This document shows positions 1 through 6,497 of a stretch of DNA of 6,497 nucleotides, piece after piece (positions within the stretch are counted from its first letter, which is position 1; each line of letters starts with the position of its first letter). Source of the DNA: Candidatus Mcinerneyibacteriota bacterium. GTDB taxonomy: Bacteria > AUK180 > JAQVHJ01. The stretch spans positions 1 to 6,497 of the forward strand of contig DAOVMD010000181.1 in NCBI GenBank assembly GCA_030630935.1, in the 5' to 3' direction. Position numbers and translations under genes: made by a program. Under the pieces are notes generated by a model. It was not told the DNA's origin. It saw only the letters and a program-made list of their open reading frames with translations, and ran no database searches.

Positions 1-167
1 CCAACTTCATCACAATGTTCTAAGCCTGCAATTGATCCATTATATCCTGTTGCAAGGATATTCTTCCCTTTTACAATGAGAGCACCTACTTTCTTCCTAT
101 CACAAGTGGAACGTTTACTTACCATCTCAGCAATATCCATGAAATAACTATGCCAATCTTTTCTCAT
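1..167 (-). CDS. dCMP deaminase (ComEB-like), N-terminal 55 residues, cut by left edge
   Basis: Translating the minus strand from ATG at 165-167 gives an open frame to the window edge. It begins MRKDWHSYFMDIAEMVSKRS and continues through TCDRKKVGALIVKGK, ATGYNG and HCDEVG. The pattern W-x2-YFM-x-IA, RSTC-x-R-x2-VGA, ATGYNG and HCDE is the hallmark N-terminus of the deoxycytidylate deaminase family (T4 dCMP deaminase, Bacillus ComEB). These cytosolic zinc enzymes convert dCMP to dUMP for dTMP synthesis. The catalytic HAE and PCxxC zinc motifs would lie beyond the left edge, so activity cannot be judged. GAGG at 174-177 sits 6 nt before the ATG and supports this start. The gene follows preA by 72 nt on the same strand and may be co-transcribed; the gap contains an inverted repeat (188-209). 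Confidence 0.88.
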   Translation of the reverse strand, partial: MRKDWHSYFMDIAEMVSKRSTCDRKKVGALIVKGKNILATGYNGSIAGLEHCDEV

Positions 168-2811: not shown

Positions 2812-2840
2812 TTGACAATAGGTTTTATTTATTGTATAAT
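2812..2840 (+). promoter_or_regulatory. Consensus sigma-70-type promoter for rtcB (rightward)
   Basis: TTGACA at 2812-2817, a 17-bp spacer, then TATAAT at 2835-2840: both hexamers match the housekeeping consensus exactly with ideal spacing. The expected start of transcription is near 2847, giving rtcB an AT-rich leader of roughly 148 nt. The -35 box lies inside the preT 5' leader, so this promoter overlaps the leftward one and the two cannot easily be occupied together. The start site is inferred, not measured. Confidence 0.85.
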
Positions 2841-2869
2841 ATTATATGATAAAAATTTTAAAATGTCAA
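2841..2869 (-). promoter_or_regulatory. Consensus sigma-70-type promoter for preT-preA (leftward)
   Basis: On the minus strand, TTGACA (2864-2869), a 17-bp spacer and TATAAT (2841-2846) match the consensus exactly. Upstream of the -35 box an A-rich run (about 2870-2889 on this strand) resembles an UP element. Transcription should begin near 2834, giving preT a leader of about 46 nt. The -10 box directly abuts that of the rightward promoter. Confidence 0.85.
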
Positions 2870-2994: not shown

Positions 2995-4452
2995 ATGACA
3001 CCAAGATGGCAAGGTAAACTTGAGAAACTCGATGAGAATAGATTTTTAATCCGGAAGGAAACAATCCCCGGAATGCTGGTGGATGGAATAATCTATTCGG
3101 ATGATAGATTAAAACAACACCTTCTAAACGATAATACACCTTTACAGGTTTCAAATGTTGCTTTTCTCCCGGGAATTCAGAAGTATTCACTTGCAATGCC
3201 GGATATTCATTGGGGATACGGATTTCCAATTGGCGGAGTTGCAGCAATCGATCCGGAATACGGCGTCGTTTCTCCGGGTGGAGTTGGGTATGATATCAAC
3301 TGCGGTGTGAGAATGTTAACAACAAACCTGTTTTATTCAGAAACAAAAAAATATTTAAGTAAACTCCTAACCCAATTATTCGAAAATATACCTTGCGGCC
3401 TGGGACGTGGCGGATTAATAAGACTTAGTAAGAAAAACCTAATAGGCGTCTGTAGAAACGGTAGTTACTGGGCTGTTCAAAATGGTTTTGGTTGGGATGA
3501 AGATGTTGATTTTACTGAAGAAAATGGGAGATTGGATGGAGCTGAACCGGAGAGAATTAGCGACTATGCTTTTAAAAGAGGAAGTGCTCAGCTTGGAAGC
3601 CTTGGTTCCGGGAACCATTTTTTAGAAATACAAAAAGTACAAAAAATCTTCGACACCGAAAAAGCTAAATACTTTAACTTGGAAGAAGGAATGATTACTG
3701 TCATGATCCATTCCGGGTCAAGAGGTTTCGGACATCAGGTCTGTTCTGATTCACTTAAATTTATGAGAAATGCTCCTGAAAAATATGGGTTTAAAATTCC
3801 CGATAAACAATTAGCATGCGCCCCGATAAACTCAGAAGAAGGAAAAGCGTATTTAGGTGAGATGAATTCTGCTGCAAACTATGCATGGGCTAATCGGCAA
3901 GTTATGACACACTTTGTAAGAGAGAGTTTTGCTAAAGTCCTTAAGAAAAAAAGTGATGAGCTCGGATTAAAATTAATCTATGACGTTGCACATAATATTG
4001 CAAAATTTGAAGAATTCGAGATTGACGGTATTAAGAAGAGACTTTTAGTACATAGAAAGGGAGCAACAAGGGCTTTTGGACCTGGTAATAAAAATATCCC
4101 TGCCAAGTATAAACCTATTGGGCAACCTGTCCTAATCCCCGGAGATATGGGAACAGCATCATATTTGATGGTCGGTACAGAAAAAGCAGAATTAGAAACA
4201 TTCGGATCCACAGCTCACGGGGCAGGACGAATGTTATCAAGAGCCGCAGCGGTAAGACAGACTAAGGACCGCTCTATCCGTGAAGAACTTTCAGCTAAAG
4301 GAATAATTGTCAGGTATCGCGGGAAAAAAACATTGAGAGAAGAAATGCCTGATGCTTATAAAGATATTGATTTAATTGCGGAGATTGTTGATAGAGCCGG
4401 TTTATCAAAAAAAATTGCACGATTAGTACCATTAGCAGTTTTAAAAGGATAA
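2995..4452 (+). CDS. rtcB: RNA-splicing ligase RtcB (3'-phosphate/5'-OH RNA ligase)
   Basis: The protein has 485 residues, matching the full-length archaeal-type RtcB (about 481 in Pyrococcus horikoshii). RtcB joins RNA 2',3'-cyclic-phosphate or 3'-phosphate ends to 5'-OH ends using GTP and Mn2+, in tRNA splicing or RNA repair in the cytosol. All catalytic residues can be matched: D100 and C103 in GYDINCGVR, N207/H208 and E211 in LGSGNHFLE, H239 in IHSGSRG, H333 in AHNIAKFEE, the HRKGATRA block at 353-360, the guanylylated histidine H408 in HGAGR, and the penultimate Lys484. Numbering runs 4-5 ahead of the Pyrococcus enzyme throughout, so there is no deletion. AGGAG at 2982-2986 is 8 nt before the ATG. 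It is the first gene of a two-gene unit with the hydrolase 4 nt downstream. No archease, RtcA or RtcR gene is in the window. Confidence 0.96.
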   Translation: MTPRWQGKLEKLDENRFLIRKETIPGMLVDGIIYSDDRLKQHLLNDNTPLQVSNVAFLPGIQKYSLAMPDIHWGYGFPIGGVAAIDPEYGVVSPGGVGYDINCGVRMLTTNLFYSETKKYLSKLLTQLFENIPCGLGRGGLIRLSKKNLIGVCRNGSYWAVQNGFGWDEDVDFTEENGRLDGAEPERISDYAFKRGSAQLGSLGSGNHFLEIQKVQKIFDTEKAKYFNLEEGMITVMIHSGSRGFGHQVCSDSLKFMRNAPEKYGFKIPDKQLACAPINSEEGKAYLGEMNSAANYAWANRQVMTHFVRESFAKVLKKKSDELGLKLIYDVAHNIAKFEEFEIDGIKKRLLVHRKGATRAFGPGNKNIPAKYKPIGQPVLIPGDMGTASYLMVGTEKAELETFGSTAHGAGRMLSRAAAVRQTKDRSIREELSAKGIIVRYRGKKTLREEMPDAYKDIDLIAEIVDRAGLSKKIARLVPLAVLKG

Positions 4453-4456
4453 AAAT

Positions 4457-5134
4457 ATGCAGACATTAGCTCATATTCAATATGGTTGGCTTCTAGCTAA
4501 CATTGATAAGGATTTAAACCTAACTGAAAGGAGATTAATCACTTTAGCTGCATTCGTTCCCGATATTGATAGTATCGCACAATTATTTGGAACAGATGCA
4601 TTTTATAACTATCATCATATTGTTTTACATAATTTCCTAACAATGTTCATCTACTTAGTAATTGCATTTATTTTTACAAGGAGAATAAAAGTCCTTGCAC
4701 TTACTGCGCTATCCTTTCTTCTACACCTTGGAACGGATTATGTAACTTCAGATTGGCCTCTACAATTATTTTATCCATTCTCCAAATTCGAAGTTACTCT
4801 TGAAGAATTTATCCCATCAGAGATAATTATCTCTCTACTTCAACCAATCTTCGCTTACGGAATTATTATTGCAACAATTATTATTCTAATCAAATATAGA
4901 AGAACTTTTATTGAAGCATTCTCAAAAAATCTCGACATATTATTAATAAACTTTGCTCTCCTTCCTTTTAAAAACAGATGTGCTTTCGATCAAAACAGAG
5001 CACTCTACAAGTGTTCCGAATGTGGGAAAACACTATGTGCTAAACATAGATATTTTATTAAAGGACTAAAAGTAATATGCCCGGATTGTAAAAAGATTTC
5101 GGTTAACTCCGTTAACCAAACAGAGAACAGATAG
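4457..5134 (+). CDS. YdjM-like membrane metal-dependent hydrolase with C-terminal zinc finger
   Basis: The protein has 225 residues. The first two thirds show the YdjM/DUF457 pattern of putative membrane-bound metal-dependent hydrolases: H6 near the start, PDID (35-38), H54-x3-H58, LHLGTDYVTSDWP (89-101) with H90 and D94, and YPFS (106-109). Hydrophobic spans at about 59-75, 79-93 and 122-146 fit membrane segments. After a basic stretch (K146-R149) comes a cytosolic tail with C186-x2-C189, C194, H197 and C208-x2-C211, which looks like a zinc-binding treble-clef or B-box-like module. No substrate is established for this family. AAAGGAT at 4443-4449 overlaps the end of rtcB, 7 nt before the ATG, and only 4 nt separate the two genes, so translation is probably coupled. 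A functional link to RNA ligation is suggested by context only. Confidence 0.72.
   Translation: MQTLAHIQYGWLLANIDKDLNLTERRLITLAAFVPDIDSIAQLFGTDAFYNYHHIVLHNFLTMFIYLVIAFIFTRRIKVLALTALSFLLHLGTDYVTSDWPLQLFYPFSKFEVTLEEFIPSEIIISLLQPIFAYGIIIATIIILIKYRRTFIEAFSKNLDILLINFALLPFKNRCAFDQNRALYKCSECGKTLCAKHRYFIKGLKVICPDCKKISVNSVNQTENR
5101..5117. repeat. Perfect 7-bp inverted repeat at the end of the hydrolase gene
   Basis: GGTTAAC-TCC-GTTAACC forms a hairpin with a 3-nt loop across the last codons (VNSVN). It also contains GTTAAC twice, itself a palindrome. It is not followed by a T-run, so it is not a standard terminator, though it could stabilise the 3' end of the rtcB-operon mRNA. Confidence 0.45.
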
Positions 5135-5151
5135 CAGAGAGTAGAGAGCAG
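5118..5151. repeat. Degenerate purine-rich repeat (CAGAGA-like)
   Basis: Just across the hydrolase stop codon the sequence cycles through CAGAGAA, CAGATAG, CAGAGAG and TAGAGAG, ending in CAG: about four imperfect 7-nt units. It codes only the last residues of the hydrolase and then becomes intergenic. It looks like slippage-generated low-complexity DNA; no function is evident. Confidence 0.4.
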
Positions 5152-5396
5152 TCGTTTTATAGATAACAATATGGGCATCATGGGGACGTACATTATCTTT
5201 CTATAACGCTTGTACATTTATGTGCATTGGGTTCATCCTTCTAACGGGAGAATTAAATGCTTATGATCAGGGAGACCGGTCGGTAGCCCCTACTTTGTTT
5301 GTGATACAATGCTTTGGTCTTTGAATGAATACATCAAAAAAGGATTAGTACCATAAGAGTTGTAAACGATTTAAAAAAAGAGGAAATAAATTTTAA
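5135..5396. other. 262-bp convergent intergenic region without a gene
   Basis: Neither strand has a convincing gene here: the frames are short and lack good ribosome binding sites. No hairpin followed by a T-run serves either flanking gene. It contains the end of the purine repeat, a near-palindrome TGTACAT-TT-ATGTGCA (5211-5226, one G:T pair), and a GC-rich imperfect palindrome (5269-5293). The mixed composition suggests it may hold debris of a small mobile or intergenic repeat element. Confidence 0.5.
5269..5293. repeat. GC-rich imperfect palindrome, possible REP/MITE-like relic
   Basis: AGGGAGACCGGTCGGTAGCC followed by CCTAC has outer GGG/CCC arms and an inner ACCG/CGGT pair around the ACCGGT palindrome, with a small internal mismatch. 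It is clearly richer in G and C than its AT-rich surroundings. Sequences of this GGGCGACCGGTCGGTCGCCC style recur as dispersed intergenic repeats in many bacteria. This copy would be decayed, and that identity is inferred from shape only. Confidence 0.35.
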
Positions 5397-5717
5397 TTAT
5401 TCAATATTTATATTTTTCCAAAGAAATAATTTCAGGTCTATACTGCCATCTTCCCTGAATTCAATACCTTCATCTTCCAGAAGCTTTTTCTGGGTTTCAA
5501 GCCCGGCACCGGATCTCAGGGATATCTTACCCTGACTATTTACGACTCGGAACCAGGGCAATTTTTCTTTTCCGGAAGAAGAATGTAAAATATAAGATAC
5601 TTGTCGAGCTGCACGGGGACTCCCGGCAAGGCGAGCAATTAAACCATAAGTTGCAATTTTACCCTTTGGGATTTTTTTAATTAAGTAAATTACTTGTTGA
5701 TAAAATGTTTTTTCCAT
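5397..5717 (-). CDS. Alkyltransferase-like protein (ATL), MGMT family without the catalytic cysteine
   Basis: The 106-residue length is typical of ATL proteins. The MGMT-type DNA-binding domain is clear: FYQQVIYLIKKIPKGKIATYGLIARLAGSP (5-34, broken here at IP for reading: IPKGK at 16-20) and AARQVSYIL (36-44). Y24 and R38 match the base-flipping tyrosine and arginine finger of human MGMT (Y114, R128). The alkyl-acceptor motif PCHRV is instead P54-W55-F56-R57-V58, so it cannot transfer alkyl groups to itself. Known ATLs bind O6-alkylguanine and flag it for nucleotide excision repair; that role is inferred here. Stops lie upstream in frame, so this ATG is the only plausible start, although no good Shine-Dalgarno site precedes it. 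It is co-directional with the PaaX-like gene and convergent with the hydrolase gene. Confidence 0.88.
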   Translation of the reverse strand: MEKTFYQQVIYLIKKIPKGKIATYGLIARLAGSPRAARQVSYILHSSSGKEKLPWFRVVNSQGKISLRSGAGLETQKKLLEDEGIEFREDGSIDLKLFLWKNINIE

Positions 5718-5912: not shown

Positions 5913-6497
5913 TTATTTTTTCTTCATTTTACTGCTCTTGAATACACTCTCAAAATATGCATTGGAGATAGGGTCAAGCAAATTAAAAAAATCAAAGTAG
6001 AACTTTTTAACCTTTTTAACCTTCCAGGTCTTCGGTAATAATTCAGGTGGAATCTTCGGGTCTTCAAAAGATAATTCAATCCATTCTGAACTCATCTTGA
6101 ATTTTGTTGCAAAACATTTAGCAGGAGAAAACATCTTTCCCTTTTTACAGGCTTTAAATTTTTTCTGATACTTGTTCATATAACTTACGAATAGCTTCTC
6201 AATTTTTTTTAAATTCCAGACCCGGTTAAGAAGCTCTTTTGTGTCTTTCTCTACATATTCCGCTTCAAATATATCAATATACTTCTCAATCTTTAGATGT
6301 TCCGCTAACTTGTAAACCTCGCTACTGAAATCATGCGGATAAATATAAATTGAATTACCAATCGCTCCAAAACCAACAGAAGTTAACTTACAACGAAATG
6401 CATCTCGCTTTTTCCGCTGTTTCTCAGGAATATTATAAATTATCAATCTCCATTTTCCGTCCCATTTATGTTCCTCTTCAAAATGATAAGCCCTATC
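5913..6497 (-). CDS. PaaX-family transcriptional regulator, middle and C-terminal domains (5' end beyond right edge)
   Basis: The frame is open from the right edge; the visible 194 residues begin DRAYHFEEEHKWDGKWRLII and end in TAA at 5913-5915. WDGKWRLIIYNIPE, the following K/R-rich RDAFRCKL, and VGFG-x6-SIYIYPHD are the signature of the PaaX middle domain, which has a Cas2-like ferredoxin fold. The later DPKIPPELLPKTW matches the PaaX C-terminal domain (DP-x-LP-x-ELLP-x2-W). The N-terminal winged-helix DNA-binding domain is outside the window. E. coli PaaX represses phenylacetate-degradation genes and is released by phenylacetyl-CoA, but no such genes are here, so target and ligand are unknown. 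The tail is lysine-rich (SSKMKKK). Because of the fold it could be mistaken for a stand-alone Cas2; the C-terminal domain argues against that. A TTG at 6444-6446 is not a likely start because the conserved WDGKW lies upstream of it. Confidence 0.82.
   Translation of the reverse strand, partial: DRAYHFEEEHKWDGKWRLIIYNIPEKQRKKRDAFRCKLTSVGFGAIGNSIYIYPHDFSSEVYKLAEHLKIEKYIDIFEAEYVEKDTKELLNRVWNLKKIEKLFVSYMNKYQKKFKACKKGKMFSPAKCFATKFKMSSEWIELSFEDPKIPPELLPKTWKVKKVKKFYFDFFNLLDPISNAYFESVFKSSKMKKK

Follow-up and report, generated by a model that had tools for sequence, protein, structure and literature searches.

The 206-bp gap between the preT-preA genes (minus strand) and rtcB (plus strand) of a Candidatus Mcinerneyibacteriota bacterium holds a pair of face-to-face consensus promoters, which probably form a bidirectional promoter, constitutive and of the housekeeping-sigma type, for preT-preA on one side and rtcB and a ydjM-like gene on the other, used by one polymerase at a time. 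The site is a rare and extreme (full-consensus) member of the known bidirectional promoters and no new kind of element. We infer the activity of both promoters, and their shared output, from the sequence elements and the gene arrangement found in the window, i.e., the whole stretch of 6,497 nt that was analyzed.

Two Facing Consensus Promoters in One Intergenic Gap

The gap contains an exact TTGACA-17-TATAAT promoter at 2812-2840 (plus strand) and, directly adjoining it, a second exact copy at 2841-2869 (minus strand). The rtcB-directed promoter consists of a -35 box at 2812-2817 and a -10 box at 2835-2840, and the preT-directed promoter of a -10 box at 2841-2846 and a -35 box at 2864-2869; the hexamers match the consensus exactly, both spacers are 17 bp long and neither promoter has the TGn of an extended -10. 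The abutting -10 boxes compose the palindrome TATAATATTATA at 2835-2846, in which no base is common to both boxes. The earlier note had reported this exact pair with its coordinates, its 17-bp spacers and the 12-bp palindrome, all of which proved correct on the sequence; its further claim of mirror symmetry is valid for the hexamers and fails for the spacers, where 7 of 17 positions agree (shuffle mean, 7.3). Since the symmetry of the hexamers is absent from the spacers, the site is made of two face-to-face promoters and not of an inverted duplication, and a mirror duplication or invertible element was ruled out because the spacers match no better than shuffles do.

Each half of the site has the features of a housekeeping sigma-70-type promoter (a -35 TTGACA, a spacer within 16-18 bp, a -10 TATAAT and over-representation in the genome), and the symmetric -10 at 2835-2846 can be used in both orientations, as in the bidirectional promoters of Warman and Grainger. 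The exact elements thus bear out the reading of two sigma-70-type promoters facing each other between preT-preA and rtcB. Chance is no explanation of this two-promoter sequence: shuffles of the window hold on average 0.02 TTGACA-17-TATAAT promoters (0 of 200 reach two), and when the 206-bp intergenic region was shuffled 3000 times, no shuffle contained both full promoters.

Flanking Genes and Predicted Transcripts

On the minus strand, preA (240-1427; 395 aa) encodes a dihydropyrimidine dehydrogenase subunit (NCBIfam PRK08318.1, 451 bits, cutoff 335), the closest solved structures of which are dihydropyrimidine dehydrogenases. The adjacent preT-like gene (1430-2788, minus; 452 aa) encodes an NAD(P)H/FAD/4Fe-4S subunit with the Pfam domains Fer4_20 and Pyr_redox_2; its top solved relative is 4ylf, listed as dihydropyrimidine dehydrogenase subunit A, followed by Nfn subunits, and it is named after its neighbour and its domains, with likeness also to Nfn and glutamate synthase subunits. 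A Shine-Dalgarno-like AAGGAG (2799-2804, minus) precedes its ATG at 2788. On the plus strand, rtcB (2995-4452; 485 aa) encodes an RNA ligase (Pfam RtcB, 571 bits) and has a Shine-Dalgarno-like AGGAG just upstream; a YdjM-like membrane protein gene (4457-5134, plus; Pfam YdjM, 38 bits, cutoff 29) follows at a separation of 4 bp and is probably cotranscribed with it.

When the start is placed at the last -10 base + 7, transcription of rtcB is predicted to begin at 2847 (zone 2846-2848, plus, on account of nearby purines), with a leader of ~148 nt, and that of preT-preA at 2834 (zone 2833-2835, minus, likewise), with a leader of ~46 nt. These predictions reproduce the starts that the earlier note had estimated, and its statement that each -35 box lies within the other promoter's leader was also correct, the box falling at ~+18 to +23. 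Going by the -10 positions, the divergent starts would be 13 bp apart. Each promoter is directed towards the proximal end of a genuine gene with a ribosome-binding site, and the leader would be of plausible length. An RNA element in the leaders was ruled out, as the window has no match to a known RNA family in Rfam.

These observations bear on whether both directions are genuine. Symmetry of the -10 element commonly yields reverse initiation (Middlemiss et al., 2023, PMC10268837), and the reverse -35 box is poor at most of the other abutting sites of the class; one of the two directions could then be a side effect of the symmetric -10 or a site at which polymerase is trapped. At the preTA/rtcB site, however, neither -35 box departs from the consensus, preT and rtcB each require a promoter and the 206-bp gap holds no further promoter of at least 10/12 matches at another position, which makes a single genuine direction very improbable.

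Predicted Sharing of the Site by Opposing Polymerases

Because full-consensus promoters stand face to face with abutting -10 boxes, their open complexes are expected to overlap, both melting nearly the same dozen bp and each covering the other's -35 box. A single polymerase would bind in one of two orientations, and initiation would be divided between the two operons by the relative rates of binding and escape. Minor asymmetries might decide how this constitutive supply is split; one of them is an A-rich tract (2870-2891, minus; 91% AT vs 77% on the other side) that lies upstream of the -35 box of the preT-directed promoter. This tract is a weak candidate for a UP element, and the UP-consensus scores (7/14 vs 6/14) do not tell the two sides apart. 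Steric exclusion of opposing polymerases can safely be predicted from the overlap of their footprints, in support of the mutual exclusion proposed in the earlier note. Perfect consensus promoters can be escape-limited, and this possibility means that promoter strength cannot be read from the sequence; with a perfect -35 box on either side, the two directions should compete at the basal level already, provided that promoter escape does not limit output.

The original paper on bacterial bidirectional promoters is reportedly that of Warman et al. from 2021, as cited in PMC10268837. Further work on such promoters (Middlemiss et al., 2023, PMC10268837; Warman et al., 2026, PMC12825309) provides a framework for comparison. 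In E. coli, opposing polymerases cannot bind bidirectional promoters together, and improving one -35 box represses the opposite direction (PMC12825309). The tested E. coli promoters were too weakly active at the basal level to compete, and competition required the artificial improvement of one -35 box or the addition of an activator; on its own, competition merely reapportions and constrains expression (PMC12825309). The favoured start-to-start distance is typically 18 bp, and also 10 and 23 bp, and about one quarter of the E. coli bidirectional promoters lie between divergent genes (PMC10268837, PMC12825309). The preTA/rtcB site resembles these promoters in its sigma-70-type -10 symmetry, in divergent starts within 7-25 bp and in exclusive polymerase binding, the latter two as predicted here. 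It differs in its predicted distance of 13 bp, intermediate between two of the favoured values, 10 and 18 bp, in that both -10 boxes are perfect and abut, sharing no base, unlike those of the 18-bp class, and in that both -35 boxes are also perfect. Similarly, acrA/acrR and soxS/soxR of E. coli produce two divergent mRNAs from one site and show competition once one direction is strong (PMC12825309), but their regulators are encoded next door, whereas none is seen at preTA/rtcB. Unlike the tested low-basal E. coli promoters, the natural sequence described here already lies at the strong end for either orientation, and would therefore allow a direct test of competition and noise reduction without activators.

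The earlier suggestion of a switch balancing rtcB against preT-preA found no such backing: no regulator, operator or feedback is in sight, perfect consensus is the common strong promoter of this genome, and competition alone only reapportions or constrains expression in E. coli (PMC12825309). Among the annotated neighbours in the window there is no regulator gene, a distant PaaX-like fragment excepted. In the absence of any sign of memory or of a regulated decision, the term switch exceeds the evidence, and bistable switching is not indicated. A regulator-free version, in which competition for the shared -10 has been selected for anticorrelated expression of preTA and rtcB through mutual exclusion, would draw on the two perfect -35 boxes, under which strong competition is expected if the 'up' mutants of PMC12825309 are a guide, and on the recurrence of the divergent preTA/rtcB arrangement in a second genome, G004. 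Nevertheless, exclusion at one site would re-equilibrate at every initiation and hence keep no memory, and the exact form was found nowhere else in the class. We also know of no functional link between pyrimidine reduction and RNA repair. Taken together, such selected switching is improbable.

Frequency of Single and Paired Consensus Promoters

The genome that carries the pair (3.16 Mb) has 197 exact TTGACA-15..19-TATAAT sites vs 6 for the reversed control (192 vs 3 when only spacers of 16-18 bp are counted). A single perfect promoter is therefore ordinary in this genome, and the TTGACA/TATAAT consensus is the organism's own promoter type. With spacers of 16-18 bp, there are 149 exact sites in the family's other genome (G001) and 36-56 in the rest of the class. 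Separately, a near-identical promoter, TTGACTTTTGGTGAAAAAATAGTTATAATATATATTATA, was seen four times (G000 C46:19702, C120:12039, C179:72 and C249:72), with three of the four copies near contig ends, and belongs to a multicopy element.

The pair, on the other hand, is rare, as the earlier note had surmised: a search of 386 genomes for exact pairs whose spacers are 17 bp long and whose -10 boxes are separated by 0-12 bp gave this site alone. Allowing up to 3 mismatches in 24 with 0 bp between the boxes gave 11 places in 10 genomes, vs 0 in the reversed control; only the preTA/rtcB site has fewer than three mismatches, the other 10 having three each. In IMG/VR there is one further exact dual promoter, in a T4-like phage, where it is flanked by co-directional genes. 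It was found on two contigs (L195:2973-3030 and L196:7640-7697) that are identical in the 58 bp and in the neighbouring genes and evidently represent the same phage. Given these co-directional neighbours, the dual arrangement alone need not mean two mRNAs.

Related Arrangements in the Class

Across seven genomes of the class, the looser pattern of TTGA..TCAA outside and TANNNT..ANNNTA inside, with 0-12 bp between, occurs at 23 places vs 2 in controls, and ~80 sites vs 9 in the control have a strong promoter followed, at no more than 12 bp, by a perfect -10 box in reverse orientation. Among 72 unique sites of the latter kind, the commonest separations are 0 bp (14, with the two strands of the preTA/rtcB site counted as two) and 4 bp (12), as judged against a uniform expectation that ignores composition and with one near-copy of a repeat omitted, which leaves the 0-bp counts unaffected. 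A strong promoter with an abutting reverse -10 (TATAATATTATA) is present at ~12 other loci of the seven genomes. Where a simple ORF caller resolved both flanking genes, 7 of 11 other 0-bp loci lie between divergent genes; the loci at 3-4 bp are similar (~5/10), and 0 bp is therefore not clearly privileged.

The nearest sibling, at G001:C429:2645-2702 in the same family, also carries TATAATATTATA, i.e., two perfect and abutting -10 boxes, with 17-bp spacers on both sides and divergent genes around it. It differs in its -35 boxes (TTGACT and TTGCAA; promoters of 11/12 and 10/12) and in its unrelated genes, lipoprotein-like and endonuclease III-like as named from sequence only. Two abutting pairs of the own genome were rejected as siblings: C130:1240, which is located within a gene, and C300:270, which drives a single gene. 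It is unlikely that selection has repeatedly favoured, in this lineage, a bidirectional promoter geometry of abutting perfect -10 boxes whose starts are ~13 bp apart, with preTA/rtcB as a natural full-consensus form in which polymerase competition alone sets the ratio of the two operons.

The gene pair itself offers a further comparison. No RtcB match, and with it no orthologous region, was found in G001, the one other genome of the family that the comparison covered. In G004, from another family of the class, preA-preT is likewise divergent from rtcB (L134, G004:C10:50500-56500), and the PreA, PreT and RtcB proteins are 37-50% identical to those of the window. In the 77-bp gap of G004, TATAAT-TT-ATTGTA makes a facing pair of -10 boxes separated by 2 bp, such as 0.8% of shuffles contain; these boxes are weaker and degenerate, and the -35 boxes are poor and not conserved, so the strong promoter form is not common to both loci. 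Thus, a shared divergent promoter at preTA/rtcB may be old and its strong form not, although one locus is a weak basis for this. Outside the class, a PreT or PreA homologue was found near RtcB at 0 of 80 RtcB loci from named genomes.

This comparison, together with the counts above, also bears on whether two independently selected strong promoters came to abut by chance in a short divergent gap, their geometry being without function. Such an origin is possible, if the less probable: strong consensus promoters are very common in the own genome, the spacers are not mirrored, the exact phage copies do not lie between divergent genes and the excess of abutting pairs over other spacings is modest. 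It fits poorly with the lack of a second exact pair at 0-12 bp in the 386 genomes, with near-matches that exceed their control and with the opposed -10 boxes that G004 has between its preTA and rtcB. Whether the geometry was selected is all that separates chance abutment from a shared constitutive bidirectional promoter; both imply the same mode of action, and they are therefore not exclusive.

Other Features of the Window

The PaaX-like protein (5913-6497, minus), with central Cas2-like and C-terminal domains, is truncated by the contig end. An alkyltransferase-like protein with an O6-methylguanine transferase DNA-binding domain is encoded at 5397-5717 (minus) and carries PWFRV at the active-site motif, which is usually PCHRV. 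Finally, a dispersed repeat at 5100-5400 has 51 matches in the own genome (70-96% identical), mostly to two modules (query ~1-80 and 145-241).
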